Positions 481 to 38,900 of a stretch of 64,000 nucleotides of DNA are shown piece by piece. The position numbers were made by a program, and so were the translations under genes. The stretch's first letter is position 1, and the number at the start of each line of letters is the position of its first letter. Below the pieces are notes generated by a model. It worked only from the letters and a program-made list of their open reading frames with translations. It did no database searches and was not told the DNA's origin. The DNA is from Branchiostoma floridae (Eukaryota; Chordata; Leptocardii; Amphioxiformes; Branchiostomatidae). The DNA lies in contig NC_049991.1 in the NCBI RefSeq assembly GCF_000003815.2, forward strand, positions 7,659,703 to 7,723,702. The letters run 5' to 3'.

Positions 481-1250
481 TAAGGTACTGTACTTGAATG
501 TAAACTTAGTGCATTTCGGCGTTAATATCTGATACTATATATCATATCTATACTATAATTATATAGATCACAAACACGAACTATATAGATTCTAAAGGTG
601 CTTTAGAATCTATCATAGATCCGAATCAATCATTTTATGACTTCTGTAGTCATTATATAATCATTACAATGAAATTATTTAGTAGTAAGAAGTTCAACAT
701 TTTCCCATCGAAGCATATGGTTGTGTAGTATGCGAGTATTCAATGTGTAACCGTTGATGTTAATCAAGTGTCTTTGTCGAACAGAGTGGTAATATGACAA
801 AAAAAGAACTCAACTGCCAATGACGTAATGCATCCGTTTCATTTATTTTCGTCACTACTTTATTTGCCACGCTGTCCAGTTTTAAAAATTGTTATGGAAA
901 ATTATTAGTAGTATTATTATGACTTTACATGAATCAGAAAACCATGACGTACATGTTGATGACAGTAGCAGTACACCATAACGCATTTTTCACGTTTAGA
1001 AATTGCAAAATCTTAAATTGCACAACAACTACTAAAAAAGGAATAAACAATTATATACTAGTGCGTTTCCATAATGGTATCATTTATCATCTTGTGTTAT
1101 GTTAAAGAGCAATGGCCATATTATTCCCAAAAGATAAAATTCTATAGCTACATTTTTGGTGTATTGAATTATCTGAAAATTATAGTTTTTGATTGAACAA
1201 AAAAACATTAGATCTATGTCATATGTAATAATTATTGTAAAATCATCGGG
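481..1250. other. Gene-free stretch, probably containing the carboxylesterase 3' UTR
   Basis: This AT-rich sequence has no supported gene. It lies downstream of the minus-strand carboxylesterase stop codon at 1251. A minus-strand AATAAA (plus-strand tttatt at 842-847) could be its poly(A) signal, which would give a 3' UTR of about 400 nt. I see nothing else that can be named. Confidence 0.45.
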
Positions 1251-1841
1251 CTATAATTCCTCCTTATCGGACGATGCCACAAGTTTAGGAATGACGTCAT
1301 TCCAGAGTGCCATCCTGTCAGGGTGCAGCCCTACGTCACTAGATGACGTCATATCCAGGTTCATGTAGGCTGGGTTGACAGGTGTATACTGGGGCCACTC
1401 CGGTACAGCTGGGCTATCAGCTGGGCCGCCGGTATGGTCAGACGGGTCCCTGACAAAAACAGATTTTTTGATATTTTAGAATTTCACGATGTTGTAGGCT
1501 GTGACAGAACGAACCACCGGCAAGGAGCTAAGACAGCATTTTTGGTAACAAGACAGCTGGATTTAGTACGACATACAAAAGAAGAAAAAAATCATTAATG
1601 GCACAACAAAAGTATAGCAGATTTCGTAGGTTCTATTACATAATTACATACCGCACACATAAACAGACGAGTGCATACAGATGCAATGCCTAGTACATAT
1701 ATGAATATCAATAGGCGTGTACACAGCGATGACCTCAGTTTGCGGTGTGACCTGACCCAAAATAACCATACTAGATAGCCCATAGTTTTGATCAAGTAAG
1801 CGCGCGTGTGTGTGTGGTTATTTGTGCCTAATGTATGTATG

Positions 1842-1893
<52 letters not shown>

Positions 1894-4800
1894 GTGTGAG
1901 TGTTTGTTTTGTGTGTGTCTGTGTATGTATGTGTAACGTTAAGTGTTTGTGTGTCTGCGTGCATGTGTGAGTGTGTTGACCATACTGTTTTTAGTTCTGC
2001 TTATAATAATAACACCGATCACCGTTCTGCACTGTAATAACTGAAAAGTAGTATGTGCAGCGCACGCCTAACTAAAAGACTTACCCGGTTCGGGCAAAAT
2101 TAGCCCAGAAAGCCATCATGTCCGCGCTGAACTTCTTGTCATCCGCTGTGTTTGGAATTACGCCTCCGGCTGCTAGATGTACGTCAATGAAGGGCCATCC
2201 GGACATACTGGTCGTGTCATCTCCATGGTCACACCCCACCCACTCCGGTCGGGTGGCAGCGCTCGCCGAATGCACGTAGTGGTTCTCGTACAGGTAAACA
2301 TTAGACCCAGATGCTAAAAAAAACAGGTACTAGATATAAACTTGAAAGTTCTTCTGTGTTGGTAGAAGTCATTCTTGAACTAGTTTAACTGTAATATACA
2401 ACATAAAAATTGGACCCAAATTCTCGACTGAACAGCACCAGTCTTTGTCAAGGGATAAAGATTCCACTGCTGAAGTGACCAGTAATCTTATTCTCCAATC
2501 AGAGGTTGGGTAGACAGTAGTGGCCGGGATTTCTTACAATCCGCCGACACAACATCTGCTTTGAGAATATTGTAATCTCACCTGCGTGTTTGTTTGCGGT
2601 GTCCACCGTTGGAGCCACGAACATCTGGTCGCCAGCAAATAGTGTGTACTGGTGCTGCACGGCCATTGGGTCGTCTGGATTGTAACGGTAAACTTCCCTA
2701 GCAGCTGCTATGACACTGTCCTTCTTAGCCCCCTGATACAAAAATAAAACACATTCAAGTAACTCATCAATACATCATTACATGACTGTTTACGTTCGGG
2801 TTTTGAAGATAAAAATCTTCATTCTATACTAGTGTTGTTTGTGTACGTATCAGAATAAATGTCATTGAACGTAAAGCCAAAATGCAGTTACTCAAGCAAC
2901 TGGATATGATTTTGGAAACGGTCAGACTAGCATCTACTGGTTTTCGTCAGTGACACATTCCAAAATGATATCCAGTTGCTTGAGTAACTGCATTTTGGCA
3001 CATCTTATTACCTGGAAGTCTAATCTTCATCGACGTATTCGAATGTAATGTAAAGTATAAAGTTTGTTGGTATTCCTACCTGGTAGGTTCTGTCTATGAG
3101 TTTCTCTAGCTCGTGGAGGAAAGCGTCCTCTGTCATCCCTTGCCCGAAACCTAAAGGGCCTGTCAAGGACGGCATCACAAATCCGAACTCGTGGTTGTTG
3201 ACTCCGAGGAGATACTCTACAGCATTTGCTTGACCGTCGTGGTACAGATCTTTGGGGTGCTCCGGAAGAAAGTTGCCGTCAAGCACGGGCCCGAAATATT
3301 CCCCCATTTCACCACTGCCCATCTTCATCATTCGTAGAGAACCTTCCAAGATTTCGTCTGCAGTCTTTTGCCTCAGACAGTCTACCAGGGAAGCTGAATC
3401 CTTCGCATCACATCCAACCTCTTTTGCCAACTTTGCGGCCAACTCCAAAGGTTTCGGCAGGACTTCCATTGTGCTATAGGTGCCGCTTTGAGAGATAGCG
3501 CGCTGGAAAAGACCCTTACCAAGAGGGGAAGCGACCTGATAACTAACGCTCAAGCCACCGGCGGACTCGCCGAAAATGGTGACCCTGTCCGGATCCCCTC
3601 CAAAGTTTTGAATGTTTTCCTTCACCCAGATCATTGCCTCGACCTGTGGGAAGAAAGCATTTCCTTTAAACATTATCATAAAATCTCGCTATCATCTTTT
3701 CTTTCAAGCACTAACTATTCTCAAGTCATTTTCATCAAAATAACTTCTAAACTGTTTCATCTTCAATATTATACTTTTATAGTTACTTTGATATACCAAA
3801 TTTGTAACTTTACGAGTATCCTTACAAGAGGTTAACCCATATAACCTATAACCGTAAAAGTATACCCGACAGTATATTTTGCATGCAAAGTGTGCCAATA
3901 AAATTGTATCTTATAATGTATTATGCAAATCATACTAAAAGGAAAACTGTTAGCCCCTTAGCTTGTCCAAGAACTTAAACATCTTTCTACTTGTCTCAGT
4001 TGATTTTCTTATATGGCTAATATAATGCCCATACGCCGAACAGCAGTTACTCAAACAACTTGAAAGGATTGTGCGTCCAGTTGCTTGAGTGTGCTTTTCG
4101 GTGTACTGTAAATGCAGAAATGTTCGCGGTGGATTAATATTCGCGGTTTTCGCGGTGACCACTTTACCGCGAAATTAAAACCACCGCGAACATTTTTCTA
4201 TAATGGTATTAGGCTGCAGTCTATGGTGTTACCGCGAACTTAAATCCACCGCGAAAAGTCCCTTTTCCCGCTACCGCGAAATCAAATCCCTGCGAACTTA
4301 AATGCATTTACAGTATCTAATTACCCGGATGGCTAACCTTCAACGTATAATGCCATGTTTACAATATATCCCAGCATGCATATCAAGCGGAAGTAGCTCA
4401 CCTGATCCAGGAAACCAACGTTCCCAGGGGCGTTCTCGTCCCCAGTGCTGAGGAAGCCCAGCGCGCCCAGACGATAGTTGATATTGACCACCACGACGTC
4501 TTGCTTAGCAGCCAGGGCGGCAAAGGGCACGACATGTCCCATCCCCATGGACAGGCCCCCTCCGTGAATCCACAACATTACCTGTGCACAAGGGCAATTT
4601 CCGTTTAACATACTGGTTGGCTTGTTTCAAAGTTAGTTTGCTGTGGAAGGACTTTCGCCCCGCCTCGAGGCTGACTTTATTTCGGCGACTTTGAAAATGG
4701 AGGGACGATACTCTTTCCACGGCTCACTACCTAATTAAGGTAAACTCCCTTTCTCGGCAAACTCTCTTTTCCGGCATTAGAGAATCTTAGCACTAACTTT

Positions 4801-7699: not shown

Positions 7700-7861
7700 T
7701 ATTTACACTATCGTACTTTACAAGCACCAGAAACATTTTCGTCACAACTTATCAAAAGTAAGAATTTTACAAATACTATTCAATTTGATTGTAATCATTA
7801 TTGTAGTGATGTTGGCGTTGCTATAGTAACCAGTTGGATGTAATTTTCCCTCTGTGACTGA

Positions 7862-10800
7862 TCACTGGCGGTTTCGAAATTCTGTGGGCAACGTCTGTAA
7901 AAAGAAAAGTATGAATTTTAGTATATGTCATATTTGCATACGATACGATGCTACAAGGCATGAAAATCTACTATAGTATTAAAGTACCGAAACAATACAT
8001 TTTTTCACAAACACAAGAATTGGTAGTTTGCATGATAGCCCTTCCACTTATCAATAAGTGCATGTACATGTGGCGTCCAGAATCCATCTGTGCTGTACAT
8101 ATTTCTACATAGCATTACGCAAACAGCTTTAACTTCATTTCAAATTTCCAACACAAGACGGGGGCCGGTACCGACTTCCTACCACCTTTCACCCGTGCTG
8201 ACGTCACACTTCCGGAAAGTGACGTGTACTCAACATCTGGGTTCTCAAAAACACTGAAGAAGTCCAAAGTCAGAATTCTTGTGCGTGAACTCAAATCTGT
8301 CTCCATGCATAGCGCTACTACACTGTTGTTACGAAATAATCACTGCACGTGTGATAAATAGATTACGATAAATGGATATTGAGAGGCGTAGACGTACGTA
8401 CCCCACAAGGCGCCGACACCGCCCAGGGCCAATTGCAGACCTGCAGCTCCAAGTCGAAGACCAGACCCCCGGGCGGGCAGTCTCGCTGGTAAGGCCCGGG
8501 ATGTCCGGGTACGCACTGGTAAAACTTGTCACAGTTCTCAGGGTCGGGGTGGATGCCTGGTGCTTTTCCTTCACACGTGAATGTGGCTACAGCATCTTCC
8601 TCGGCATGGGTTGGAACATCTGCCAAGACCTATAGGAGAAACAAATAATACAGAAAAAATTAAACCAATGTCCAAAATGCTTGCACGACACCGATAACAC
8701 TTAACTTCAACATTGACTGCAATTAACCGTGATAGTATTATTCAATTAGCATAACGTCTGTACGAAATGTACACAATTTTAATGTTACTGAAGAATGTTT
8801 CCGGATGTTTCGAATCGCCTGCTGGGTTCACCGTGACGTCATTGCAGGTATTGTAACCTTACATCACAACCTCTTCTCCTTTAATTGTCACTTTGATTTT
8901 TAATTTTTGGATGCCATTTTACAATAAACGCATGAACATTATACACGATATTAAAATACCCGAATACAAGAATTACGAGCTGGAAGTATTTCTCGAATGG
9001 TTCGGTGTTAAAGATCATTTTGTTGTGAACGATTGTATTCAAAATACTATGATTGTTGTTGGAGATGGTAAGAAAATGCTGCATTTTGGTGTGCAATGAA
9101 GATAAGAGATTATGTCTATTGACAAAATCTGATGGAAAATCAAAGTGTAATTTTCAAACAAACACTTACCCCGCAAGGCAGAGCGACATTTTCGGGCCAG
9201 TCGCAGTACTTCTTCTCCGGGTCGAATACGGGTCCGCCCGGAGCACACGAGCGGTGGAAGGGATCGGCAAACCCGACAACACACTCGTAATACTTCGTGC
9301 AGTCCTCGGGATCCGGGTACAGGTCGGGCTCCTTCCCGGTACAGCTGAATGCTGTGATAAGAATTAAGATTTCATGGCATGTCCCGGATAACAAAGCAAA
9401 AGTTCAGTAAGGTTCGTAAGATGCATGTAGAAAAATTTTAAAAAGTTTCTGGTGTGTCTTAGCACCCTACTTAAATCTTTAGTGATTTGGGGCTTTGTTG
9501 ATTCAGAACTGAATTTTGCAGTAACTTACTCTGTTCTGGTAAGTCTGCATGCTATTAGTATGCAAGGAAACCATATTACAAAGTTTACCTTTGGAAGAGG
9601 TGGTCTCTGGGATCTTAGTAGGTTCTGCTGCAGGTTCGGTGGTCTGAGGTGTGGCCGTTGTTGTGGACTCTGCAGACGCTTCCGTTGCCTGGGATGTGGA
9701 CGCTGTTGCAGACTCTGCAGAGGCTTCCGTTACCTGAAGTGTGGACGCTGTTGTAGACTCTGCAGAGGCTTCCGTTGCCTGAGGTGTGGACGTTGTTGTA
9801 GACTCTGCAGAGGCTTCCGTTGCCTGAGGTGTGGACGCTGTTGTGGACTCTGCAGAGGCTTCCGTTGCATGAGGTGTGGACACTGTTGTAGACCCTGCGG
9901 AGGCTTCTGTGGCCTGCGTTGGGGACACTGTTGTAGACTCAGCAGAAGTTTCCGTTGCCTGAGGTGTGGGCGCTGTTGTAGACTCTGCAGAGGCTTCCGT
10001 TACCTGAAGTGTGGACGCTGTTGTAGACTCTGCAGAGGCTTCCGTTGCCTGAGGTGTGGACGTTGTTGTAGACTCTGCAGAGGCTTCCGTTGCCTGAGGT
10101 GTGGACGTTAACGTTGTTGTAGACTCTGCAGAGGCTTCCGTTGCCTGAGGTGTGGACGCTGTTGTGGACTCTGCAGAGGCTTCCGTTGCATGAGGTGTGG
10201 ACACTGTTGTAGACCCTGCGGAGGCTTCTGTGGCCTGCGTTGGGGACACTGTTGTAGACTCAGCAGAAGTTTCCGTTGCCTGAGGTGTGGGCGCTGTTGT
10301 AGACTCTGCAGAGGCTTCCGTTACCTGAAGTGTGGACGCTGTTGTAGACTCTGCAGAGGCTTCCGTTACCTGAGGTGTGGACGTTGTTGTAGACTCTGCA
10401 GAGGCTTCTGTGGCCTGCGTTGGGGACACTGTTGTAGACTCAGCAGAAGTTTCCGTTGCCTGAGGTGTGGACGCTGTTGTAGACTCTGTAGAAGCTTCCG
10501 TTGCCTGAGGTGCGGACGCTGTTGTAGACTCTGCAGAATCTTCCGTTGCCTGAGGTGCGGACGCTGTTGTAGACTCTGCAGAAGCTTCCGTTGCCTGAGG
10601 TGTGGACGCTGTTGTAGACTCAGCAGAGGCTTCCGTTACCTGAGGTGTGGACGCTGTTGTAGACTCTGCAGAAGTTTCCGTTGTCCGAGGTGTGGACGCT
10701 GTTGTGGACTCTGCAGAAGTTTCCGTTACCTGAGGTGTGGACGCTGTTGTAGACTCTGCAGAGGCTTCCGTTACCTGAGGTGTGGACGCTGTTGTAGACT

Positions 10801-11923
10801 CTGCAGAGGCTTCCGTTACCTGAGGTATGGACGCTGTTGTAGACTCTGCAGAAGCTTCCGTTGCCCGAGGTGTGGACGCTGTTGTGGACTCTGCAGAAGT
10901 TTCCGTTACCCGAGGTGTGACGCTGTTGTGGACTCTGCAGAGGCTTCCGTTACCTGAGGTGTGGACGCTGTTGTAGACTCTGCAGAGGCTTCCGTTACCT
11001 GAGGTGTGGACGCTGTTGTAGACTCTGCAGAAGCTTCCGTTGCCTGAGGTGTGGACGCTGTTGTGGACTCTGCAGAAGCTTCCGTTGCCCGAGGTGTGGA
11101 CGCTGTTGTGGACTCTGCAGAAGCTTCCGTTGCCTGAGGTGTGGACGCTGTTGTAGACTCTGCAGAAGCTTCCGTTGCCTGAGGTGTGGACGCTGTTGTA
11201 GACTCTGCAGAGGCTTCCGTTACCTGAGGTGTGGACGCTGTTGTGGACTCTGCAGAAGCTTCCGTTGCCTGAGGTGTGGACGCTGTTGTAGACTCTGCAG
11301 AAGCTTCCGTTGCCTGAGGTGTGGACGCTGTTGTAGATTCTGCAGAAGCTTCTATTGCCTGAGATGTGGGCTCTGTTGTAGCATCCACGGTACCTTCCGT
11401 TGTCTTATTAGGTCTCGATGTTGTTGTAGCTTCTACAGCAGCTTCGAATTCGGTTTCCTGAGGCCTAGGTGTGAACACTGTGGTGATTGGTACTGCAGGC
11501 TCTGTAGTGTTGACCTGGTCAGTGATGATCACATCGTCAGTCACCATGTACATGGTGCTTTGTACATCTAAATCGGTGCCCTGGGCAAAAAGATTTAAGC
11601 ACTGTATAAGAAATACATCTACGCCATCAACTATGTTTCTTGATTCAGTCAAGAGATGAAACAGTTCCATTTCACGGATCTTATTCAGTATACCCAACAA
11701 TTTACCAGAATGATAAGTTCCCGGTAGTTATTGTTCTATATTGGAAGTATGAACATACAAAGTGCTATACTGTTACAGGTGTTACTTAAGTTCACCACAT
11801 TTACAAAAATACTTAGAATATCAAAACGTAGTATCTTACCAGAGTAGACTCAGGCACAGGCATCGTGTATGAACTACAGGCAAGAAAACTCAGAAAAACT
11901 AGAGTAGTATACATCTTCATCAT
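7862..11923 (-). CDS. Secreted mucin-like protein with Thr/Ser-rich repeats and two CBM14 (peritrophin-A) chitin-binding domains; frame broken by 1 bp
   Basis: Five exons: complement(7862-7894, 8402-8629, 9170-9351, 9589-11580, 11840-11923), with GT-AG introns. They sum to 2519 nt, one short of 840 codons. Exon 1 gives a signal peptide (MYTTLVFLSFLACSS core). Exon 2 encodes about 38 tandem 15-residue repeats of the form TTASTPQATEASAES, an expected O-glycosylated mucin stalk. Exons 3 and 4 each encode one CBM14 domain with six cysteines and the usual PDPE(D/N)C, Y.C and VFD motifs. The last exon adds TLPTEFRNRQ. The family binds chitin in gut or surface mucus, so a secreted, mucus-forming, chitin-binding role is inferred. 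Near 10919 one repeat has gtgtga where its neighbours have gtgtgga, which shifts the frame inside the array. This could be a real allele or an assembly error in repetitive DNA. Confidence 0.9.
9610..11360 (-). repeat. 45-bp coding minisatellite (about 38 units) of the mucin stalk
   Basis: A 45-bp unit (15 codons) repeats from about 9610 to 11360 with scattered substitutions. One copy near 10107 carries a 6-bp in-frame insertion, and one near 10919 has a 1-bp deletion. Blocks of several units recur (9845-10075 resembles 10145-10375), which points to higher-order duplication. It should be a variable-number repeat. Confidence 0.95.
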
Positions 11924-17992: not shown

Positions 17993-20900
17993 ATGCAGTG
18001 GCTTGTGTTGTTTCTTGCCACTGGTAGTCTAGTCGCGGTTTCTGCACAACCCGGAAGTGAGAATACTACCCTGCCCCATATCATCTTTATCGTAGCCGAC
18101 GACTTAGGTAAGGTATACACTAGAAACTAACATTATATTAGCTGTGTCCCCGGTTTTTAAAGGATATGGTAAATACCTGCATAAAAAAGGGAGGCATTGT
18201 TTTTGTGTTTTTGGCCTCCCATTATAAAACCTGGGTTTAAAGTCAACGATCTTGAGTGCCATAATTAGAAGTTTAACTGCCTTCTAATCTAAAGCAAATA
18301 TCTACATGCACACAAAAAAGTACAGACTCCGATCGGGATCTCTATCGATAAAATTGCCAATTGTACTGTCAGGAATTCCAATTTCGATCTCTGTCAACTT
18401 GAGGGACTGCGATAGCGATGTCTACGTATTGCTAGAATCGGCTGTTCTGTCTGATATTGCAGTCACAGCCATTTATATTTTGGGTGAATTTGGGGCGTGG
18501 ATCGCATTTGAACATGTAGTTGCCTCCAAAGGTAAATGACCGATAGGTCGGACCTTGTAATCTATATAGTATATAGCCGGTATAACTACCCTTCGGCGTA
18601 CGTAACACACCAGCTTCGTGGGCACACAGGGCGCGGCAGCAGCTGGTTCTCATGATTACACTGCACGACCTGTCACACCTAACGTTTGCACATCTAGGAA
18701 TTCTGATGGGACGAAAAAGCATACAGATTAATGGGACAAGGAATGCATACTACCATTGAGCCCTCTGCTGCCACCAGTGTAAACAATGAGAAACGATCAC
18801 ATGGAGTCGTAACTGATGGACTGTAAATGTGTACTTACGAGCGAGGCCGAAGGGTCCTTTAAATTTGCCAGGAGGCTACCAAAGTTCTTCTGCCTACATT
18901 TATTCTTACGGGATATTATGAACATGAATGTATGGTATTGCATACTCAGAAGCCAAAATAAATCTCGTCACAGATTTATATTCACCCAAGTCAGAAAAAA
19001 GAAAGGTTCTATTTAAGGTTATGTTCCATAAGAAGGTGTAAAATTCATTGCATTTCACTTTCGATCAATAACTACCTAGTTCTTCACAGTAAAAGATGAT
19101 AACTGTTTAGTTTGAAATACAAATGTACCCAGCGCCTTCTACGCTGGTTCCTTGCATCAAAGCTTTCTCAGCATTTCCAGTGCTAAATTTGATCTTTCTG
19201 GATTTATGAGGGAAAAAAATGTTTTTCAATCTTTTGAATTATTTAGACAATCGTATCAGCCAACAACTAACATTGCAGACTTTTAATGAAATGTTCTCTT
19301 TCCACGTTTGCAGAAATCCCTACTAAATTTCTATCACGCTTTCAGGTTGGATTCCGTTGGAATGACGTGGGTTGGCACAACCCTGACGTTAAAACGCCTG
19401 TTCTGGACCAGCTGGCTCACGAAGGCGTCATCCTCAACCAGTCTTACGTCAACTACGTCTACGTCGCTACACTGCACCAAATCGGATATTTAAGCATACT
19501 TAATGTGATTCGTAAATGAAGCTTAAACATTTGAATATAATTAAGTTATCTTTAAGCTACATTTACGAAGTCGGAAATGCCACAACTAAAAGTCAATCTT
19601 TACGACACATTTAAGAAAATCGTTAAGTTCACTTAAAGATATAAGTAACTTTACTTGTTCCTTAAGGTCACTTAACTATGCATTAAAGATATAACAGTAA
19701 TTTGTGCAGTTTTGCCAACACATTATAGATATATACTGACTAAAAGAACCATCAATTTACTCTGCATTTTAATTCGTTTATATACGATACCATTAAGCGT
19801 CCTTAAATATAGTTTAAAGCTATTTATTTAAGCTTCGTTTAAGCTACTTAAAGTGTGGGGTAGACTCTCATTAGTCTTACCGGCAATTGTACTCTTCAAT
19901 CAATGAATTTTGAAAACTACACTCCTTGACTTCTTGTCACATCATAGTTTATTCAAAAGCTTCTGCGGACACGCCTGAGCAGGCAATAGGAGGAGCGGAC
20001 TTTGTGTTCTTACAACGACTTTTAAAAACTGCATATAAATAGAGACACCTATTACTAGTATGCATTGTCAATATGTTCAAGCAAAAATGTAGTTTGATCT
20101 ATTGATATATACAAAGCAATTTTGAAACGTAACAGGACATCGATTATATAGCCAATTCAAAGGCGACAAGTAGGAGTCCCGGCCTACCAGTCTAAGCAAA
20201 ACAAAACAAACCATAACACAACTACTGGTACTTGGTTTAACGATGTGATAACTAATTCTCTAGAATAGGGCACGTTTTCAGCCTTGTAAATATACCTGCA
20301 CTGTGAATACCCAAAGATCAGCCAATCCAATACAGATAATAATAGCTCACAAATTGTGATTAGCAGAGGGTTTAAAGAGAGTAAGCGTCACTAGTCCATA
20401 AAAACAAACAACATGTAGTTCCGAGTGGGCCTTTTCTTTTGTTTATAAATCCACCGGCTAACCCACGCCATCTTTTTTTTTTAATTCATTCTAAACTTAA
20501 AAACACTATCAAATACCGTAGACGCAACAAAAAACGTTGATACTGGATACCATAAGACGCTGCACAGTGCGTGGATTTGACATTTTCCAGTTTGACCCTA
20601 GCAAGAAGCTCCAAAATGCATACATTTTTGTTTCTTTTTCGTAGTTTGAATGTCGCGGATAATCGCGCTTGGAGCACTCCGCGAATACAAAATGGCCGCT
20701 ACCGCTGAATTTATAACAAGAACCTTTGAAAGTTTGTTTGAGTTTTATCAAAGCACTTGATTTTGATCAAGCGGTGTGTTGTTCATTGCCACCTTCACTT
20801 AACTCTGAAAAATGTCAACATTACAAGAAAAACTGTACATTTCATGTTTCGAGTTATATCTGGAGATACACAAGGCAGAATTTGACCAAGTACCTTCATT

Positions 20901-23900
20901 TGACAAAACAAACAACCGCCGGGAGGCGGAATATCGCCGCCATTTTGTATCTGGTTTGAGGCGTCTAGACGTTCTAGGGGAAACGTAACACTCTACGTAA
21001 TTTGTAAAATAAGTTTAAATTGCCTAGGCATGCGGCCTATATACATTGTGACTGGCGTTCTAGCCGCTGGCGACCGAACTGAGCGTGTTGAATTTGGAAA
21101 AGAGAGCAAGCAAGTTCATAAAAACAAACTAGTTCCGAGCAGGATTTTTCTTTGTTTACAATCTATAATTGGCTCAACGTTCACCCACGCCGTCTTTGTT
21201 TGGATTAATTCTTTAACTTTAAAGGACAGTTAAATGCCAAATTATATGGTAGATACAACAGAAAGTCGTTTGTACAGGATCCCATAACGTTCATGCTTTC
21301 TGCAAACTCTTTATCATTAGATAAAAGCGCTGCAGAGTGCAAGGAGTTGACAATTTCCCGTCGGACGCCAACTTTGTTTCGATTCATTCCTAAACTTTAC
21401 AACAATATATCAAATTAGAAACAACAGAAAATTGTTGCTATTGGTTCGTCATAACGCTCATGTCAACAATTTGACATTATCCAGTTTGACCCTAGCAAGA
21501 AGGTTCAAAATCCATAAATGTTTGTTTCTCTTTCATAGTTTGAATGTCGCGGGAAATCACGCTTGGGGCGCTCCGCGAATCAAAATGGCCGCTACCGCTG
21601 AATCTATAACAAGAAGCTTTTAAAGTTTGTTTGACCTTTTATCAAAGCACTTGATTTTGGTCAAGCGGTGTGTTGTTCATTGCCACCTTCACTTAACTCT
21701 GAAAAATGTCAACATTACAAGAAAAACTGTACATTTCATGTTTCGAGTTATATCTGGAGATACACAAGGCAGAATTTGACCAAGTACCTTCATTTGACAA
21801 AACAAACAACCGCCGGGAGGCGGAATATCGCCGCCATTTTGGATCTGGTTTGAGGCGTCTAGACGTTCTAGGGGAAACCAAGGAGCTTTTATCACTGATA
21901 AAAGCTCCTTGGGGAAACGTAACACTCTACGTAATTTGTAAAATAAGTTTAAATTGCCTAGGCATGCGGCCTATATACATTGTGACTGGCGTTCTAGCCG
22001 CTGGCGACCGAACTGAGCGTGTTGAATTTGGAAAAGAGAGCAAGCAAGTTCATAAAAACAAACTAGTTCCGAGCAGGATTTTTCTTTGTTTACAATCTAT
22101 AATTGGCTCAACGTTAACCCACGCCGTCTTTGTTTGGATTAATTCTTTAACTTTAAAGGACAGTTAAATGCCAAATTATATGGTAGATACAACAGAAAGT
22201 CGTTTGTACAGGATCCCATAACGTTCATGCTTTCTGCAAACTCTTTATCATTAGATAAAAGCGCTGCAGAGTGCAAGGAGTTGACAATTTCCCGTCGGAC
22301 GCCAACTTTGTTTCGATTCATTCCTAAACTTTACAACAATATATCAAATTAGAAACAACAGAAAATTGTTGCTATTGGTTCTTCATAACGCTCATGTCAA
22401 CAATTTGACATTTTCCAGTTTGACCCTAGCAAGAAGTTTCAAAATCCATAAATGTTTGTTTCTCTTTCATAGTTTGAATGTCGCGAGATATCACGCTTGG
22501 GGCGCTCCGCGAATGCAAAATGGCCGCTTCCGCTGGATTTGTAACAAGAAGCTTTTAAAGTTTGTTTGACCTTTTATCAAAGCACTTTGTTTTGGTCGGT
22601 GTGGTGTTCATAGCCACCTTCACTTGATTCTGAAAAATTTCAACTGTACGAGGAAACGTTGAATAAACTGTACATTTCGTGTTCCGAGCTATATCTAGAG
22701 ACAAACAAGGCAAACTGTTGTGTTTGTTATTGTTTTGTGGTGGCATGGCAGGACGATCCCACGCCAGGTAACAATGACTGGTCTTGGCACCCACGCCGAT
22801 TTACAAAATGTGTGCCCGACAATTCACATGTCATTGTGTCTATCGGACATGTAAATTTTGATAAGAAATAAGCCAATCACATGCAGTTTCCTTATGACGA
22901 TGACCAATCATCGTTGATGATGCAAGTTTTGAATTTTTGAACTGAACACCTAGCGTCATTCTAAGTCTGACGATTCTAGAGTGTGCAACGTTAACATTTT
23001 CACCGTTTTACAAAATGTCCGCGATTTCTCGTACTGACAACCCCATGGAACGAGGAGACAGCGAGAACCTTGCCATCATCCTTCAGGATATGGTTAGGAA
23101 GTTTGAGTCTCAAACCGCAGAACTGCAGGCACTGAAGGCACAGCTCCAGGAGCAGGAACGCCGGCAGGCTAATCAAGAACCCCCGCGAGACATCCGAGAG
23201 GACAGCCCGTCGCCAGGGCACGCTCGCCAACGCGGCAGGGTTCGGAGGAAATCCTCTATTCCATCCACTTGCAGGGTAGGTGATTTATTTTGAGTTTTGT
23301 CATTTTGGTCATATTTGCATCGTTGCCCGTATGGGGTGTAACCCCAACCGGGCGCCGACGTCACAAATTTGTCCCGGTACCGGGGTGTTGGGGTCCCCCA
23401 GGGGCCAGCCCGTGCCCCAAATGCCCGATAGCCACGGGGCGTCACACGGGGCCATGTATGGCTCACACCCGAACGACTGAAAAAAGGGGTTCCCCAAAAG
23501 TGCCCGTTAAGTGCCGCCGAGTCTTTTTTCAATAATGTGACCGTAGCATTATTCAGGTAGTTGGTCAAACACATTTTAGCGCTTGTATCTGTATAATGCT
23601 GGCCACTTATGTAGATACCTAGCACGCATACTAGCAGGTTTTTAACAAGAAACGGACCGATGAAAACAGCTCCCCAGGCTAGCGTGCGAGCTTATTAGAC
23701 CGCCAGCCATACACTTGTAGTAATTGACATATCAATGTCCCTTCTATCTTTCTAACTCAATTTCTCGATCACTAAAACAAAAGCAACAGCCAAATTAGAC
23801 GTATTCCCCAATGACTGTTTGAAGGAATTTTCCCATGCGAGTGTTACAAACTTGCGCGCAAAGACAGCTAATACATTTGTTTAAAATGTTTTACAGGATG

Positions 23901-26900
23901 CCGTGCGCAAGGTGTACCGGGCGATGGAAGAAGGCGAAGGAGACTTTCAGGGCTTTCGGCTTACTGAACGGTATAGCAACTCCTATTTAATAAGACAATT
24001 AAATCGTTTCTCTTGCCATGGCATTGTCAAGACATGATAATAGTACCAGATGTACCGTTTAACATGTTCATTATGTTTATATGACTCCCTTCCGTCAGTA
24101 ATGACCATGAAAGAAACCCTATGATAACATCCTGTTTGATAATAGCCACGCAACTATGTTCACCCTTTCAAATATAGTCACGACATAACACCAGGGCTTC
24201 CTTTAAAAGCAAGCCCTGAAACGAATTCCTCTAGTACTTGTAGATTGATAACATAATTTATTCATTTTTTGGCATAGGATGGACTCAGCAGCCAACCAGC
24301 ACATTGTGAAGACCTTGAGAGACGAGGTGATGAAAGAGCATGGAGGGCCTGAGAAGTGTCCTTTTTCATCAGCCGAACTGAAGGGTAAGTAAATTACACA
24401 CCAAGTATGTAAGATTAATCGTTTGAAGAAGTAAGCTCTGATTTCTCCCTAAATATCTTTTTTTCAAACTGCAAATTCAGTGCAAGATGCAACTACGGTT
24501 ATACTGCAGCAGGGTTGGAGCACTAAATCGCATGTATTGTGCAAATAGCACTGACTTTTAAATCTCTACGGCCAGTGAGCAGAAACTTCACGGTGTCAAC
24601 GATACTTTTACAAATCTTAGTTTCTATGGCGTTACCTTAGAACCTATATTAACTATTCAAACACATTTGCATATGTGACGACTAAGTCTTGTTGACTCAG
24701 GTAAAACCGGTTTTCCCAGTGACATCTCATGTATAGCAGTATTGGCCCTCTATGTAAGTTCATGTCCGAAATTAATCTCCATATCTTATCCAGTTGTAGA
24801 AACCGATTTGCCTGCAAGTTTTAAGTTCATTTTCCTTCATTCTAGATGCTGCCAAGAGGTACTATAGATCCAAGAGGGATGACCAGGTGCGGGCCCAGAA
24901 GGGGAAGTATGCGGAGCACCGACACTCGGTCAAAAGAAACGGGAGGCAGCAACAGGTTAGTCTTATACACATGTAATGTCAAAGCGCAATTAATACCTGT
25001 AGGATTAAAAGTTAACATATGAAATCGTGATTCTGAAGTTTTGTGACTCGTTCTCATCAACTTTTCAATCCAGGAAAATAATGCCACAATGTTACTGAGA
25101 GCCGGTATTTCTTTATATCAAGGAAAAAATACTTATAATATATAGGAGATTGTCTCTTAAAGCACAGCTCTTATCTATTGCATTGTTTAATAGTATTTCA
25201 CTCCATACCACAGGAATATATACCAATTTGTATGCATAACATTTTTTTATTATTCTTACATCAAAAAGCACATTTTAGCCATCGTATTGCAACCAAGTGA
25301 CAATTGATAGTTAGCTGTATAGTATTTACTTCACCATGGAGAAATGTTTGACATCAGGCTCATATCTCATTTCAGAAACTGGCGAGACGACGAAAGGCGT
25401 ACAACCTGGCACGCGACAGCTGGTCAGAGAAGTCTAGGACACGGGCGGAGGAGACTCTCCACAAAGACTTCATGTCGTCGGAGTCTTCCGACAGTGAAGT
25501 GGAGGGGCCGAAAACCTTCAAGGTCAGAAAGCTGGCCTGGGAGTCAGGAAAGATGACCAAAATCAAGGAGTCGCTGGACGCTGTCGTGCCACTTCGGGGC
25601 TCTCCTCGAATCCCTTCTCGTGAGCTTTCGGACAGAAAAGTACCAGAGGGGACCCCGGAGTGGGCGATCAGCAAAAGGTATCAGAACGGCAGAGCACCAG
25701 CAACTGACGTTAGCGAGCTGAGACTGGAGTTGGATAGCGAGTAGGACGACAGACAATTAGGAGCAGATTTTGTTTGATTAGTTTAGTGTAGCAGTTTTTT
25801 CTCAAAGAGTTTTCAAAGTCAAGTTTGTAGCCACAGAATAGTCGTTTGCAACAACCAATTTGAGTAATTAATGTCAACATTTGTTTGTCCTTTATACTAT
25901 GTAAACACAATATACTACTAGTAATTACGGCCCCTGTGAGTTAGTGTTTTTTACATGTTCAACCGGTTTTTCCAGGTATGTTTACTTGTATTGAATTATC
26001 CCACCAGTTAATCAACCCTTGTAAAACTGAAGAAGAGTGATAAATGTCACCCTAACCGCCTGTAAGTCGGAAATATCTCATTGTTATCGAATTCAATATC
26101 GTTTTTTGACATTCATAAATGAGCTATGTTTTTAATCGGTTTAAGATAATCTGATACAACAACATGCTGTTTTCAATGTGATTGCCTTGTGTATATGGAA
26201 CTCTGAGAAGAGAATAAAAAGAATGTTGACTTGATATTGTGGACTGTTTGTCAATATTTCAGGTTAAGTCGATAGCATTCTTACAGGGATGTATGCCTGC
26301 TGCAGCATACACGGTTACACGGCATATAATACTATTCATCACACAATATTTAAGGAGCATTACGATTCTTAAAAGCAGCTTTAATAAAATATTTAAGACT
26401 ATATTAAAATACTTAAAACCTGCTTAAACCAGACGTAAGGCAAAAAAAATATACGATTTAAGATACATTTACGGTGCTTAAACAATGTTTAAACATTTGG
26501 ATTTAAGCTTAGTTTAAAGTACTTAAAAGTTGCTTAAATGTGTGCCACTACGTGCGCTTTACGGACTATTTAAGTCGACGTATGACACTCAATTTAAGCA
26601 GCATTTACGGTGCTTAAACGCTGTGTAAACATAAGAATTTAAGCATAGTTTACGATACTTAAAAGTTGCTTAAATGTGTGCCACAACGTGTCCTTTACGG
26701 ACGCACGTAATCATAGCTTAAATATAATATTTCCGAATGCGTAAACATGACGTAATGTAACTTAAAGAATGCCAATACGGTACCCTTAAGCACACTTTAA
26801 GAGTGCTTAAAGAGCAGTTTTCATGCAGTGCTACCAAAGGTTTCCTACATTAATATTTAAGGGATATCTCTTTCATGTATGTTTTAAAGGTATTGCATAC

Positions 26901-29900
26901 TCAAAAGGCCAAAAAATCTCGTCACAGATTTATATTCACCTAAGTCAGAAAAAAAAAGTTCTATTTAAGGTTGTATTCCATACGAAGGTGTAAAATTCAT
27001 TGCATTTCACTTTAGATCAATGACTACCTAGTTCTTCACAGTAAAAGATGATAACTGTTCAGTTTGAAATACCAAGCGCTTTTTACACTAGTTCCCTGCC
27101 CCAAAGCTGTACCAGCATTTTCAGTTCTAAATTTGATAGCTTTCTGGATTTATAAGGGAAACAATCATCCTTATATTTTCATCTTTTGAATTATTTAGAC
27201 AATCCCACCAGCCAATTTAATGCAGCAAATAACATTCCAGACTTTTAACATAATGTTCTCTTTTCAAGTTTACAGAAATTCCTACTAATTTCTATCACCA
27301 TTTCAGGCTGGAATGACGTGGGTTGGCACAACCCTGACGTCAAGACGCCTGTTCTGGACCAGCTGGCTCATGAAGGCGTCATCCTCAACCAGTCTTACGT
27401 CAACTACGTCTGCACGCCGTACGTAATAAGCTCACGGGTCAAACTGCTCGTGCGCAGCAAAATGCATTGTGGGCAATAGGTCAAAGTTGAAGGCCTCTGA
27501 AACAAGAATAAGCACATATGACGATACATCAAGCATGTCTAAACAAGAACTGCAAAGTTTACAACTTGGAGGCATTAACCTTCGACACATTACCCACGAT
27601 GCATCACAAATGTACCGAATATATAGAAAATAAAGTTTATTTTGACCTCTAGGTTTTGAACCTGAAGGTTACGTTATACTTGTGTAACCCATGAGCTTTT
27701 GTCGGCGTCGGTTGGTTCACTGCATGTATAGACTTATTTTACCAATTATCATAGCATTGTTACAATCCATAGGTCCAGAACGGCGTTTATGACTGGGTAC
27801 TTTCCCTACCATGTAGGCATGCAGGTGAGACATTTAATATCTAGCTTATTGATCCCTTCTTCTTTTATGTATCAAGCCTATTGATAGTCCAACTTTTCCG
27901 ACAAATATTGCTTTTGGTTGAGAAGTTTCATGTAGGTTATTGATCATTTAAGGAACTGGTAAGTGTGGGATCGCCTGGCGCAGCGGCATGATTTGTGCCT
28001 CGAGACCGAGAGGTTGCGGGTTCGAATCCGCTGCGTGTCACCGATCTTTTGCCCTTGGGAAAGGCACTTTACACGACTTTCCTCACTATACTCAGGTGAA
28101 AATGAGTACCTAGCTTCGGCTAGGGCCGTCCCTCGGATAGGACGTTAAATGGAGGTCCCGTGTATGGAGAGAGTCACACCCCATGCACGTTAAAGAACCC
28201 CCACACGTGCGATGGTGCGGTGTGAGTTGGAGCAAAACCCTTTAGCTTCTGTCTGGAGTTGGTGATTCACTTCAAACATCCGGATGGAGGCCTGGCGAAC
28301 CTCCATTCCGTATCAGCCACACGGTGATTTACATCAGCGGAAGGGTATGGCATAACCCCGCCGCGCCGTGAGTAAGCATGTGCGAACATGCACAGGGCTA
28401 GCCCTTGGTAATAGCCACTGGCTAGTTGGGCAACCCTGGCTGTTTGTTAGCAGCTGAACGAATAAAAAAAATAAAAAAATTAGAATATTCATTTAAAGGC
28501 TTGCAGCAAACGGACGGCTATTGTACTCACGTGACTCATGACGTCAGTATCGTCCGCCACGATGGATGGTTAAACTTGGGCGCAGCCAATGAATCGGTAT
28601 CTTTTCAAAACGCGGTTACATATAAGTGTGGTAAACACACAATCATGCATTTTTATGGGTTTGACTCTTTTAGGTCCAACCGACCAGCTAACATTGTTGC
28701 CACGTGTAAATACCATATTCAAAATTTTTATATTTAAATACCATATTTAAAAGAAAGTATATATTATGTATGTATGTATGTATATACGAGACTCTGTGTT
28801 CTGTAGCACATGGCTATGCTTCCCGAGCAGCCTTCGGGAGTTCCGTCACATTTCACCTTCCTACCCGAGAAGCTGAAGGAGTTGGGGTACTCCACTCACG
28901 TGGTGGGCAAGTAAGTCGGTAGTTTGTACCAGCTAGATATGTACTATAGCGGGCTATATAGGTCGGGCTTTTATCATTTATCATGATATTGTGTTTTCAG
29001 CTTTAAAAAAGCCAGACTCATAGGGTCTGTTAAGGAGGCTGCTCTAAAGTTATATTGTGAGTGGTTCTGTCTTTCGTTCGTAATCCTTTATTGAATACGC
29101 CACAAGGCGTAATGAAAGCATAGAAGCAGCAAGTAGGCTGGAAGGTATTTTTAGGTACAGTTTGTATTTTTGGTGACACTGTCAGGGAGCAAGCCTAATA
29201 GTCCTTATCGCAGATAGAACGCGCGCAAAGGATGCCGGGACAGTTTGTGGTCAATCGATGTTCTAGTATATAGAGCGCTGCATTGCGCGACGGTCTTGTA
29301 GCGCGTGTGTTGGTGTAACTTTAGGGCAAGGATGACGCATCACGCACGCGTGCCGCGACGCAAGTGAGAACACCTGGCAGGTGCGAACACCTGTTCTAAA
29401 GAACATTCTAGAAGGGTCAGTTAACAATAAAACAGATTTGATATTGGACGCAGTGGCATTATGGATTTGATTAAGCTTACAGATGGAAGGAAGAAGGGTA
29501 TGCTAATTACGTAATATAATCCGCCATACTTCAAACACATGGACACCAGTCTTCAAACTTCATTCTGCAACGGCCTGAGTCGGACTGACACCTTTACTTG
29601 CTTGAAATTTGCACGTTATGTGATTTCAAAATGTCGATTATATATGCAGACTGCAAAAAAAGTGCGATAGGGCGAAAAAAAACAAGATGCTGAAAAAAAC
29701 AAGATGGCTACATTTTCAAGAATAGGCACCATAAATTTGTGATGACTGTTGTAAAAATTATTGAAGCCACAAAACATGGTATCAGAGCCAACAAGGCAAT
29801 CATTCCTGTATTTAAGACAGGTACTGGTGTGGTAAAACTGACACTAGTGTGGTAGACTGGTATCACCAACGAAGTTGGTAACCACATTCATAGCTTCCAT

Positions 29901-32900: not shown

Positions 32901-35900
32901 TGTTACCGCTACCTTGGGTGACTATATAACGTTATTTATGTCATACCTGTGACGCGAAAACGTTCGATACGGGTGTTCCGGACCGTGTGATAACTTTCCG
33001 TATCACACGGGTTCTAAGTTGTATCACAAAGGCTTCCTTCGAGTAAATCGAACTATTTCGAACGGGCCGAATACGGCACTGTTGAAAATCCGAATACCGG
33101 ATTCGGACGTTAGAATTGCTGTTGTTACAATCTTTTGTTCGAGGACTCAACATTTTTTGGTGCATTTCCCATTGAAATGTGTGTTTTCTCAGGTGGGAAT
33201 GACATAAATAAAATACAACACGTTGTATTCCGCATCACCCTCGGTCCCAGCCCTCCCGCGGGTCGGATCACCCTCCGGCCTTCGGGCGATCCTTCCCGCG
33301 GTCGGGCTGGTACCTGGGGTGATACGGAATACCCCGTGTTGTATTCTATTTGTACACTCCTGTCATATAGGCTGCGCGCGGAGGACTAGACTAGGGACTG
33401 ACCCCCCATGGCACGCTCGCACGAACCCCGACTCTGACTCCGTGTGACGGTTATGGTTTTCTAATCTGGTCAAAACTGAGCTGCGGCGTGCTTCAGCCAA
33501 CTACGGCGTAGTTTGACAAGGCGCGACGTAATCTGGCGAACTCCCGCGTAGTTCACACAACGAGCTTCAATACGACTTGACTTTCGGCACAGGTACGTAT
33601 CTGAAGTACGGTCTGACTCAACTACGTCGTAAGTAACCATAGCCTGACTACAATCGCTCTCCTAGCCCGACAGTTACCGCCCCCTCATTAAACCCAGCCA
33701 GCGAGAGATTGTGTAAACACATAATGTAATGACCCAAACTACGTATTTTCAGCCATACTGCGACAAAGTTGGACTACAACGTCTTACCCCACCAATTTGT
33801 ACATCACCTTGACACCGTTACGTTATTGTATTCTCCCCCCAATACGCTAAACTGAGAACAAGATAAACATTCGAGTGTATCGCCATTATGAAAACTAGAA
33901 GACATCCCTGAGGGTAAGGTTTGGCCGTTTTGCAGGAGGACAGATCAGTACATGTTTTCTACAATAATAGCTGCGCATATGTGTGGTAACCTGCATGCTA
34001 TGAAGCTTTTCAAACCCTGTTCACAGCGCGCGACAGAAGACAACCTTCATTTCTTCAACTAGAATCTACACAGTAAATATATTCCCACCTGTGAGACAAA
34101 GATGGTGACAACGTTAGAAATCTTCAAGCTTGTAGTGCTGACCTGCCTGTGTCACACCCTGTCTGTAGATGCTGTCTAACCGGTTAACATGTCTTTTCGT
34201 ATACGAATACACTTGACTTGACTTGAGGTAAAAAGTTCAACTGCTGACGTGGGAAACGTACATGCTCATTGTGCAAATAACTGGAATTATGAAATGTAAA
34301 TGCGCCAGATTTCATAAAATGACTCTAATGAAACTATTTTACACCAAAGGAGAGTGCTATTTTCTAAAAGACCACATCTTTATGTGCACAAAATCGACTA
34401 TATTTGTAACAATTGATCACAGATGAGCAAACTCCGCACCGGGGCCATGTTGGCGGGCCGATAGAAGAGTGATTCAATCGAGTTAAAAAAGGGATGGACT
34501 GTATGAGTAACTAGTGTTGTTAGATAGATACGGCGAGTAGGCTGTATCCTGTGTTCATGGACCTCACAACAAACATCCAGCCCTAAATAATAATAAAAAC
34601 TTCTTTCCACGTACGTGTCCACCACGTGCAACACAGCCGTGTGGAGATTGAGCAGCTTATCATCCAACATGGCCGTTCGAACGTTCGAACGCGACTGTGA
34701 CGTCACATGAAAACGGTCTATAACATTGTGTGCAGATTCAAAGAATTCCAGGAATTGTACATTTTCTTTTCAGTCCAGGTTTGAGTCTTCCTATTCTTAA
34801 GTTCACAGGCCACCGCTACCATGGCAACAGTGGCTTCATTGCCAGCCTCGTTGCGACTCACAAACATAAACACAGCAAGTGCAGGTAATTATTTTCTATT
34901 TCAGGTGGCATCTTGGTTTCTGCAACTGGAACTACACCCCGACGTACCGTGGGTTCGACTCCTTCTACGGCTTCTACAATGGGCAAGACGACTATTATCA
35001 ACATACTGTTGGTACGTTATGAAGGCGTACAAAGAGAGCGTGTAATGATAACCAATGTTTTGGAACCCCAGAATTAAACTTATCATACACAGGGAAGAAA
35101 GGCAGTACCATGCATCGACAAAGATTAGCCAACAAGATAGTTCAGAGTAACATTAATATTTTGTGGGTTATGTCAACGTTGAAGTCTGAAGACGTAGAAT
35201 AGACTGTGTACCCTTGTTAACGTATTAATCTTTCCATGTTCGCAGCGGGTGGTCTTGACCTCAGGGACGGCAAAGAAGTCGTGAAAACAAGGAATGGAGA
35301 ATACAGTACCGTAAATAACATTCATTTGTCATTACTTTCCGTTGCTCTTGCTTCTCATTATCATTTGTGTCCATAAGGCAAAAATAAATATTTTAGTTTA
35401 CACTGTTCGTCACTTTCTTCTTTATTCTCAGTTAAGTAGTATATAATAGACATAATTAGTACTGTCAGTCAGGTGATACAGCCATTAGCATCATACATGT
35501 ACACTGACCATCTGAAGTGGCTGCAGTCGTTTAATACCTCCTCTACTACTTAGGATAGTCAGTATCGTATTCTTTTATTGTACGTTTTCACTGAAATGTG
35601 TCTATTTTACAGTACTTCTTTACAGACCGGATTGTTGACATTATTGAGAAGAATCCCCTGGGCTTGCCACTGTTTTTGTACCTACCCTTCCAAAATGTGC
35701 ACGAGCCGTTACAGGTTAGTACCCATAATGATGGTAGCCAGTTTGAGAACTTGACAACCATTATCATTTCTACCGTGGACATCCATGATTGTTACGTTGG
35801 TATCGTGGCAGTGTTTTCGTAACGGTTAGGGTTTTTGGCTCAGGACCCAGAGGTCCTGGGTTGGAATCTCTTGACATGCCACCAATGTGAACATGAGTAC

Positions 35901-38900
35901 CTAACTTCGGTTAGAGATGCCCCATCGGAAAGGACGCTAAATGGAGGTCCCGTGTTTGTGGGCAGCCACACCTCAAACATGTAAAATTCACACTTGTCGA
36001 AAACAGCGAGGATCTTTCCCAATGTGAGTGGATCTAAAAGTGTACGGACTTTTCCGAGAACCTTCGTAACGATGCTTCTCCTGTCAAATCAGCTAGTCCT
36101 CACTCTTAGTGAGCAGATGAGATCGCCTCCTAATGTTTCTGGCACATTAGGAAGTATGATATGAGACTCTTCAATATCATGAGCCATTTCAAACATTTAT
36201 TAAGCATTTCTTTTGCAGGTTCCGAAACGGTTTGAGGATATGTACGCCAACGTTCAAAATGAGAACCGCAGAATCTTCCTTGGTAAGTTCAACATTCTAA
36301 AGGAACATGTGTCACCTTGTTAAACATGTTTGTCGCTGTTCTGTACAGCATAGTTGGTGTTGTCATTATCAATTAGCGAGGAATTCCTCCTCACACGTGC
36401 GTGCCAGGCGGGAGAGCATTGTTCCTTTAGTACTCCAATCCCTTCCCACATAACATGAAGTCTCTCTCCGTCTGCCACGCCAACGTGAGAAGTCTACCTG
36501 CTAATGATTTTGTTAAACTCCATGAACTCGAATCTGTTGCCCTAGATGTCGGATTCGACGTGATAGCATTAACAGAAACTTGGTGTGATGAAACTATTCC
36601 CGATTCAGATATTAGCCTGTCGTCATATCAATCCCCGTTACGACGGGACCGCGACAGACATGGGGGTGGAGTTGCGCTTTACGCATCCAATAATCTACCG
36701 TGTAAAAGAAGGTCTGACCTTGAAACAGATGGTTCTGAAACAATCTGGTGCGAGGTGAAGCTAAAGAACTGGACTGTTTACATTTGTACCTGTTATAGAC
36801 CACCTGGCCAGAATGTGGATGAGCGCACGGCATTCATAGACCACCTGCAGCGGGCGGTAGATACCATTGTGGACAATGGGCCTTCTCAGCAAAATGCAAT
36901 AGTCTTACTTGGTGATTTCAATGGTAATTCAGATAATGCAGCTGGTATGATAAACAGATTTGTGTCTGACAATAATTTTTCTCAGTTAATAACGGAACCT
37001 ACTCGTAGTACCGACACCTCAGCATCTGTGCTTGATCTGATTATTACTGACTCACCAGGTATGTTTGTGGACCATGGTATTCTTCCTCCCCTTGCTAATT
37101 GTGACCATGCTGTTACTTATGGAACAATGTCTGTTAAGGTCCCTAAAGTCAACGCTTATAAACGAACAATGTATGACTTTACGAACGTCGATTATGAAGA
37201 ACTTAATTCTAAGATTCTTGAAGTAGACTGGAATTCCGTGATATCGGATCACATTCCAGACGTGAATGCCTCAGCTGAGGCTTTTATGTCAACTCTCACA
37301 GATGTCATAAAGACGGTTATTCCAAGTAAAGTAGTCACTATCCGCCCTAGAGATAAGCCCTGGATGACATGTGAGATCAGGCGCTTACTCAGGAGAAAGA
37401 GGCGGCTCTACGGACGGTACAAAAAAACAAATAACTCTAGTTTATTTTGTGCATTTAAACGAGTTAGAAATAATTGTATAGATTTAATTAGAAAAGCGAA
37501 GAGAAATCATCGGCATAGCCTCTGTCTTGACCTTGCCAATCCAACTTCTAACCCCAAGAAATGGTGGTCAGTTTCCAAGGAAATCTTTCTTGGCAAGGCG
37601 GACCGGGTTCTGCCCTCTTTACTTGAGAATGGAAATGTTATGGCAGACGACAAGGCCAAAGCCGATATTCTTAACAACTACTTTGCATCTCAAACGTACC
37701 TGAATACCGATGGCGCCTCTTTCCCAAACTTTGTACCCAGAACAGAACTAGCTCTCAATTCAATTAATTGTTGCCCCGCAAATGTCTACAGTGTACTGTC
37801 AGACCTCAATATAAACAAGGCCACAGGGCCTGATGGACTAAGTAATAGGCTTCTGAAGTGTATAGCACCTTCAATAGCACAACCACTGTCGCATTTGTTT
37901 AATGTTTCATTAGAATACGGCTGTTTTCCGTCAATTTGGAAATTTTCAAATGTTGTCCCTGTGTATAAAAAAGGTGATAAGCAGGCCAAAGAAAACTATA
38001 GGCCTATTTCACTCCTGTGCTGTGTGTCCAAAGTGTTTGAACGGATAGTTTATGCCCCATTATCTGCGTACTTACATGGCAACAACCTGCTAACCGATCG
38101 AAATTCTGGATTTACCCCCGGAGACTCAACAGTTAATTCATTGACACACCTTGTTCATAAGCTGCACAAAGCAGTAGACCAAGGTTTTGAAGTACGCACC
38201 GTTTTCTTGGACATATCAAAAGCTTTTGATAAGGTATGGCACGATGGTCTCCTTTTCAAATTAAGCCAATTAGGGATATCTGGTTCACTTCTTCAATGGA
38301 TACAATCTTATCTCACAAATCGGAAGCAGAGAGTTGTCATTAATGGGGCATGTTCCGACTGGCTACCGATTGACGCAGGTGTCCCACAGGGGTCGCTTTT
38401 GGGCCCACTCCTTTTCCTAGTTTTTATTAACGATCTAGTGGACAACTTGCAAACTGATGCCAATCTTTTTGCTGATGACACGTCTCTTGTGGAAGTAGTT
38501 TTGGATCCGCTCGTCTCAGCAAATAGATTGAACCATGATCTTAGAATGGTGGGTGAATGGTCGGACCAGTGGCTGGTAACTTTTAATCCCCTTAAAACTG
38601 AACTGATGACATTCTCCATGAAAAGGGTCAAAGTCTATCACCCACCATTAGTGTTTAAAGGAGTTGTGCTTAAGGAAGTTGACTCTCACAAGCATTTGGG
38701 CTTAAACTTGAAACGTGACTTGTCCTGGTCATATCACGTGTCTACATTGATTACCAAGGCAATGAAGCGAATCAATCTTCTGAAGAGGATATCATATTTT
38801 GTTCCTCGGGGAACATTAGAAACTCTGTATGTCACTATGATTCGTCCATTACTTGAATATGCTGACATTGTTTGGTGTGGCCTTCTCGGCAAAGATTGTG

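Follow-up and report, generated by a model that had tools for sequence, protein, structure and literature searches.

Transposable elements of the EnSpm type encode a transposase with the motif order D, D, C(2)C, H(3-4)H, E, have 5'-CAC..GTG-3' termini, and are flanked by 3-bp duplications (PMC12730594). In maize, the TnpA protein binds the subterminal repeats of the element, and the plant proteins TNPA and TNP1 share little sequence with each other (PMC2613891); maize tnpA and tnpD arise by splicing from a single transcription unit (PMC1636069). SmTRC1 and the other TRC elements are animal relatives of the CACTA group that contain a Transposase_21 domain and produce spliced transcripts, but the termini of SmTRC1 start with CCC and 2-bp repeats flanked 7 of 14 copies (PMC1636069). 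A separate accessory gene beside the transposase gene and 3-bp duplications also occur in the two-gene elements of the PIF/Harbinger superfamily, in which the partner is a Myb/SANT protein (PMC12730594). Here, a 64,000-bp stretch of the genome of the amphioxus Branchiostoma floridae (hereafter the window; Table 1) was found to contain a mobile element whose only gene encodes a protein of 306 amino acids, referred to below as the accessory gene and protein. The element almost certainly belongs to the EnSpm/CACTA superfamily, and it very probably is an internally deleted, non-autonomous member that carries a helper gene and moves by the mechanism outlined below.

The insert is a genuine mobile element. 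Its ends are not unique to the window, as a search of the genome with the left end yielded 40 scored matches, comprising the window itself, 7 loci with 98–100% identity, and 32 loci with 75–85% identity, and with the right end as the query, the corresponding ends of these eight close copies were recovered. Both ends are paired at at least eight near-identical loci, and their identity among these copies is 98–100%; all copy numbers given here are lower bounds, with the best candidates scored. Similarity to the 7 other close copies begins at base 9 or 10 of the left-end query and ends at base 590 of the right-end query in all of them. The first-pass annotation of the window had placed an insert at 19461-26829; the insert itself was verified, but its exact limits had to be shifted by 9 bp on the left and 1 bp on the right (19470-26830). 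The weakly inverted outermost bases described in that annotation were recovered as well, with CACTGCA common to both extreme tips and the match fading farther in. The close copies measure 7361, 7822, 11317 (including 3269 N), 11539, 6513, 12585, 7359, and 11681 bp; each of the eight is flanked by a perfect 3-bp target-site duplication, with a different triplet in every case (CTA, ATT, GAA, TAT, TTG, AAG, TTC, and AAT, in the same order). One of them, L009, holds a nested insertion of a short interspersed element (SINE) of 498 bases, which is 97.6% identical to positions 46845-47342 of the window. The ends of shorter relatives are about 80% identical to those of the window element. Thirteen such diverged copies were fetched, two of which (L018 and L019) have no assigned right end, and a matching 3-bp duplication was present in 10 of the 11 copies whose right end was seen, the triplets of L022 being mismatched at the sole right-end candidate seen. 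No triplet was fixed among the 18 duplications from close and diverged copies. Eight of the 13 diverged copies measure 2.84–2.88 kb, and L024 and L026 are longer; these two have large inserts, unrelated to the transposase segment described next, with about 2 kb in common (86.6% identity).

Three of the close copies, L011 (C19), L013 (C5), and L015 (C13), are approximately 4–5 kb longer than the window copy; in them, an additional segment separates the tandem array from the accessory gene. The minus strand of this segment contains an open frame of 884 codons in all three copies, with 1–3 residue differences among them. This frame matches the Pfam family Transposase_21 (E = 8.6e-19; 68 bits versus a cut-off of 28.6) and in each copy contains the transposase motifs D, D, CxxC, HxxxH, and E in this order, with the positions of the catalytic D and E chosen by eye and not by alignment. 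The transposase gene is predicted to consist of two exons. In L011, the upstream exon starts at position 6979 and the large exon extends from 6000 to 3346, and the accessory gene starts at position 7860 on the other strand, so that the two genes are arranged head to head. The transposase gene is absent from the window copy, which is thus regarded as internally deleted and non-autonomous because its transposase-bearing sisters have the same ends. Four distant transposase relatives (C5:3601015, C16:369474, C323:287765, and C17:5351493) are 36–41% identical and have frames open for 600–840 residues; among these, only C16:369474 has an accessory match within 20 kb.

The pairing of the ends at eight loci, together with the absence of the transposase from the window copy and its presence in the three longer sisters, bears out the earlier suggestion of a DNA element that is a non-autonomous carrier or has an accessory protein as its only product. 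The idea that it represents a new kind of element was not upheld, since it has the features of EnSpm/CACTA. With maize En/Spm, Antirrhinum Tam1, and soybean Tgmt*, the family shares the Transposase_21 (tnp2) domain and its motif order, CAC..GTG termini, 3-bp duplications without a fixed triplet, dense subterminal repeats, deletion derivatives that presumably are moved in trans, and a second protein (compare PMC2613891, PMC12730594). It differs from these elements in its terminus, which reads CACTG and not CACTA, and in the origin of the second protein, which derives from a five-exon gene of its own on the strand opposite to the transposase gene. The arrangement of both products in one alternatively spliced unit, which is a feature of maize En/Spm and does not define the superfamily, was seen neither in the window family nor in the second family described below. 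The same CACTG termini and the 3-bp duplications distinguish the element from SmTRC1, and its transposase distinguishes it from PIF/Harbinger elements.

The internal tandem repeat of about 0.9 kb reported in the first-pass annotation was also found, with unit spacings of 894 and 934; the number of units varies among copies. In five of the eight close copies, the transposase is missing from its usual place; all five keep the accessory gene together with 302–396 bp of upstream sequence (approximately 300 bp in the window copy, which also keeps both ends). The window copy, L009, and L010 have a common deletion junction, apart from one base, whose right side corresponds to position 7558 of L011. 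The right side of the junction corresponds to L011 position 7517 in L014 and to 7464 in L012. The deletion in L012 clearly is a separate event, and the junction of L014 could be an intermediate toward that of the window copy, the two then being steps of one event. Since the three copies with the common junction differ in their target-site duplications (CTA, ATT, and GAA), the deletion derivative itself has moved to three sites.

The complete accessory gene with five exons was confirmed, including its canonical splice sites. Its frame is intact in six of the eight close copies and is shifted in exon 1 of L015 (−1 base) and of L010. For all 15 pairwise comparisons of intact copies, the nonsynonymous divergence (dN) is lower than the synonymous divergence (dS), although the differences are few (1–10 per pair). 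Variable columns amount to 17 of 922 in the exons versus 175 of 1945 in the introns, which makes the exons about five times less variable, and judging from these substitution patterns the accessory exons are constrained. The protein has no Pfam family at cut-off (with unconvincing best E values of 0.2 when the whole protein was searched and 0.0099 with one exon-5 member), no sequence match in PDB, no Myb match in Pfam, and no relative in a plasmid search or a scan of viral contigs. In the same genome, a second family at C6:26.13 Mb contains five accessory pieces (40–59% identity) and, divergently oriented, a transposase that is 61.5% identical over 883 amino acids, again as a head-to-head pair, and this recurrence of the gene pair indicates that the accessory gene belongs to these elements. 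Two protein searches yielded 16 further scored accessory matches outside the eight close copies, at 13 loci (neighbours within 10 kb merged). Six of the 16 have a scored transposase match within 20 kb, whereas 20000 random placements gave 0.21 on average and never more than 3; the sizes of C16 and C140 were guessed for this control, and some of the matches, with E values of up to 0.06, are weak. The upstream 7.5 kb at C19:12.37 Mb yielded no transposase.

The arrays of TTTAAGC words that had been described at both ends are present as well (Table 1). The word, including its complement GCTTAAA, occurs 15 times in the two ends and not once in the interior of the element; the remainder of the window has 8 occurrences, a rate that predicts 0.12 for both ends together. 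The 6-base core occurs 6 times in the left and 11 times in the right end, versus shuffle means of 0.55 and 0.99 and maxima of 5 and 4 (1000 shuffles each). Chance clustering of the words is ruled out by these counts. When read by eye, the words often are trailed 3–4 bases on by TTTA. In a comparison of the left end with 13 diverged copies, 96.5% of the word bases (439/455) but 80.5% of the remaining bases (4866/6045) were conserved, a difference equalled by 1 of 499 circular shifts; in the right end, compared with nine copies, the respective values were 87.3% (330/378) and 78.4% (1756/2241). The words were picked in the window copy, which slightly biases these comparisons in favour of their conservation. 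The earlier proposal that they are sites of the transposase-binding type is consistent with these data insofar as they behave as conserved sites, clearly on the left side and weakly on the right.

A complete element of this family has a size of approximately 11.5–12.6 kb and consists of CACTGCA termini, subterminal TTTAAGC arrays, a Transposase_21 gene with two predicted exons, and the five-exon accessory gene head to head with it. The transposase of such a full-length sister would mobilise the window copy in trans, acting on its ends in a cut-and-paste manner, and the accessory protein would bind to the subterminal TTTAAGC arrays, help to synapse the ends, and control the promoter of the element. 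By analogy with maize, and by a modest balance of probability, the accessory protein would be a TnpA-like subterminal-binding cofactor. It is not visibly related to TnpA, with which no direct sequence comparison was made, but such dissimilarity is no argument against a TnpA-like role because TNPA and TNP1 themselves are so little alike. The superfamily is known, but the separate, divergent accessory gene of the two families sets them apart from maize, and neither the element nor such a gene in an animal EnSpm element was found described in the open-access literature searched, which did not cover Repbase. A tentative and rather doubtful extension of the cofactor reading would be an amphioxus type of EnSpm in which an unrelated, separately transcribed protein took over the function of TnpA. 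The transposase-less copies that keep the gene would then form a helper-only or regulator-only lineage, which would survive because the protein acts on elements with TTTAAGC arrays.

Several observations weigh against the main interpretation of the element and its accessory protein. The relatives of about 2.85 kb align to the window element only at the ends and in parts of the repeat region, so that the accessory gene is dispensable in cis, and 10 of the 16 accessory matches have no scored transposase match within 20 kb. The frameshift in L010 (+1 base) affects a copy that shares the deletion junction of the window element, and the differences within the lineage formed by the window copy, L009, and L010 (3–4 in exons, 7–18 in introns) do not suffice to demonstrate post-deletion selection. 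Word conservation in the right end was equalled by 24 of 290 shifts and is unconvincing when taken alone, and the C of the right-end words is less conserved than other C. Moreover, positions 720-3988 of the L010 element are an assembly gap of 3269 bases. The gap adjoins about 750 bases without a match in the other inserts, and this region probably represents a nested insertion.

The retention of the accessory gene could also be explained if its protein were a regulator or an antagonist of silencing, with the transposase alone cutting the ends and the transposase-less copies acting as repressors or de-repressors. The gene is intact in four of the five copies that lack the transposase at its usual place, the deletions stop 302–396 bp before its start codon and thus likely spared the promoter, and maize TnpA also acts on promoter methylation (PMC1636069). 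However, retention may reflect where the deletions fell, with only two events being certain because the junctions of the window copy and L014 are possibly nested, and a purely regulatory role is considered unlikely. The cofactor reading is challenged far less by the capture of a host gene without a role in transposition. Plant CACTA elements do carry captured gene fragments (PMC2528002), and the accessory protein lacks significant Pfam and PDB matches, but host-gene capture is strongly disfavoured by the C6 family, where the five-part gene recurs in head-to-head orientation to a transposase of 61% identity. Further accessory relatives are located near transposase remnants, the exons are constrained as described above, and no candidate for a single-copy host version was present among the scored matches listed from the two protein searches, all of which makes such an origin highly improbable. 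An assignment of the insert to a different superfamily that has two genes and 3-bp duplications, such as PIF/Harbinger, has a negligible probability. Harbinger Nuwa families do encode a transposase and a Myb/SANT protein (PMC12730594), but the match to Transposase_21 refutes this affiliation, neither a Harbinger transposase nor a Myb/SANT partner was detected by Pfam, and the CAC..GTG termini and the lack of a fixed triplet in the 18 duplications are also in conflict with it.

The genomic context of the EnSpm/CACTA element raises a further question of origin. As noted in the first-pass annotation, the element is inserted between two copies of a duplicated arylsulfatase segment (18876-19460 and 26831-27411), which are 82% identical; the exons around it, read by eye, match the Pfam family Sulfatase (E = 3.9e-13). 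Compared to the right copy, the left exon copy has a 10-base insertion near its start and is cut short in the alignment, which may mean that the element sits in an intron of a still working sulfatase gene. Approximately 6 extra bases (ACGTCG) separate the left flank copy from the left CTA. The element could itself have caused the duplication, if a break at its left end was joined to the exon on the homologous chromosome, instead of having landed by chance at an existing junction. The first base of the right target-site duplication is also where the homology of the flanks sets in (one base earlier with another scoring), which would be an unlikely coincidence, and the left copy has a single CTA at that place; tandem duplications made by transposons have been reported in maize (PMC3744419, PMC4270019). 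On the other hand, the duplication looks older than the insertion, given 82% identity of the segments versus 98–100% of the element ends, unless the segments stem from diverged alleles, and the target-site duplication is intact. An involvement of the element in the duplication thus is conceivable, but falls somewhat short of an even chance.

Elsewhere in the window, SINE-like repeat copies are located at 46845-47342 (minus strand), 27964-28336, and 35887-35986, the first of which overlaps an Rfam tRNA match at 47270-47326. A minisatellite at 9644-11381 consists of 38.5 copies of 45-base units with 90% matches and is possibly coding, since the unit length is a multiple of three. Two other tandem arrays were found at 45783-46448 (10 copies of 66-base units) and 52560-52858 (2.7 copies of 109-base units).

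Table 1. Location of the element and its features. Positions refer to the window, except for the first row.
Feature	Position	Strand	Remarks
Source window	C13:7659703-7723702		513-Mb genome in 431 contigs, searched for copies
Whole element, very probably non-autonomous EnSpm/CACTA, 7361 bp	19470..26830	+	Sharp similarity edges versus other copies; transposase-bearing sisters with the same ends
Left target-site duplication CTA	19467..19469	.	The same triplet follows the right end
Left terminal CACTGCA	19470..19476	+	Identical start in 20 other copies
Left subterminal array, TTTAAGC words	19479..19860	.	5 exact words
Array of ~0.9-kb units	20400..22712	+	Outer limits approximate
Internal deletion junction	22712..22713	.	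Transposase gene missing
Accessory gene, 306 amino acids, start to stop	23015..25744	+	5 exons (23015-23275, 23897-23970, 24278-24384, 24846-24955, 25376-25744); all introns GT-AG
Right subterminal array, TTTAAGC words	26340..26830	.	10 exact words
Right terminal TGCAGTG	26824..26830	+	
Right target-site duplication CTA	26831..26833	.	

For the annotation of the amphioxus genome, these results mean that the gene for the 306-amino-acid protein is to be treated as a transposon gene and not as a host gene. EnSpm/CACTA elements have been well studied in plants, but their animal members much less. One chordate genome combines full-length copies with two genes, helper-only derivatives, short derivatives that retain only the ends, and another family in which the gene pair recurs. 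With such a set, a requirement of animal CACTA elements for a TnpA-like partner, and an independent origin of this partner, can be tested directly.

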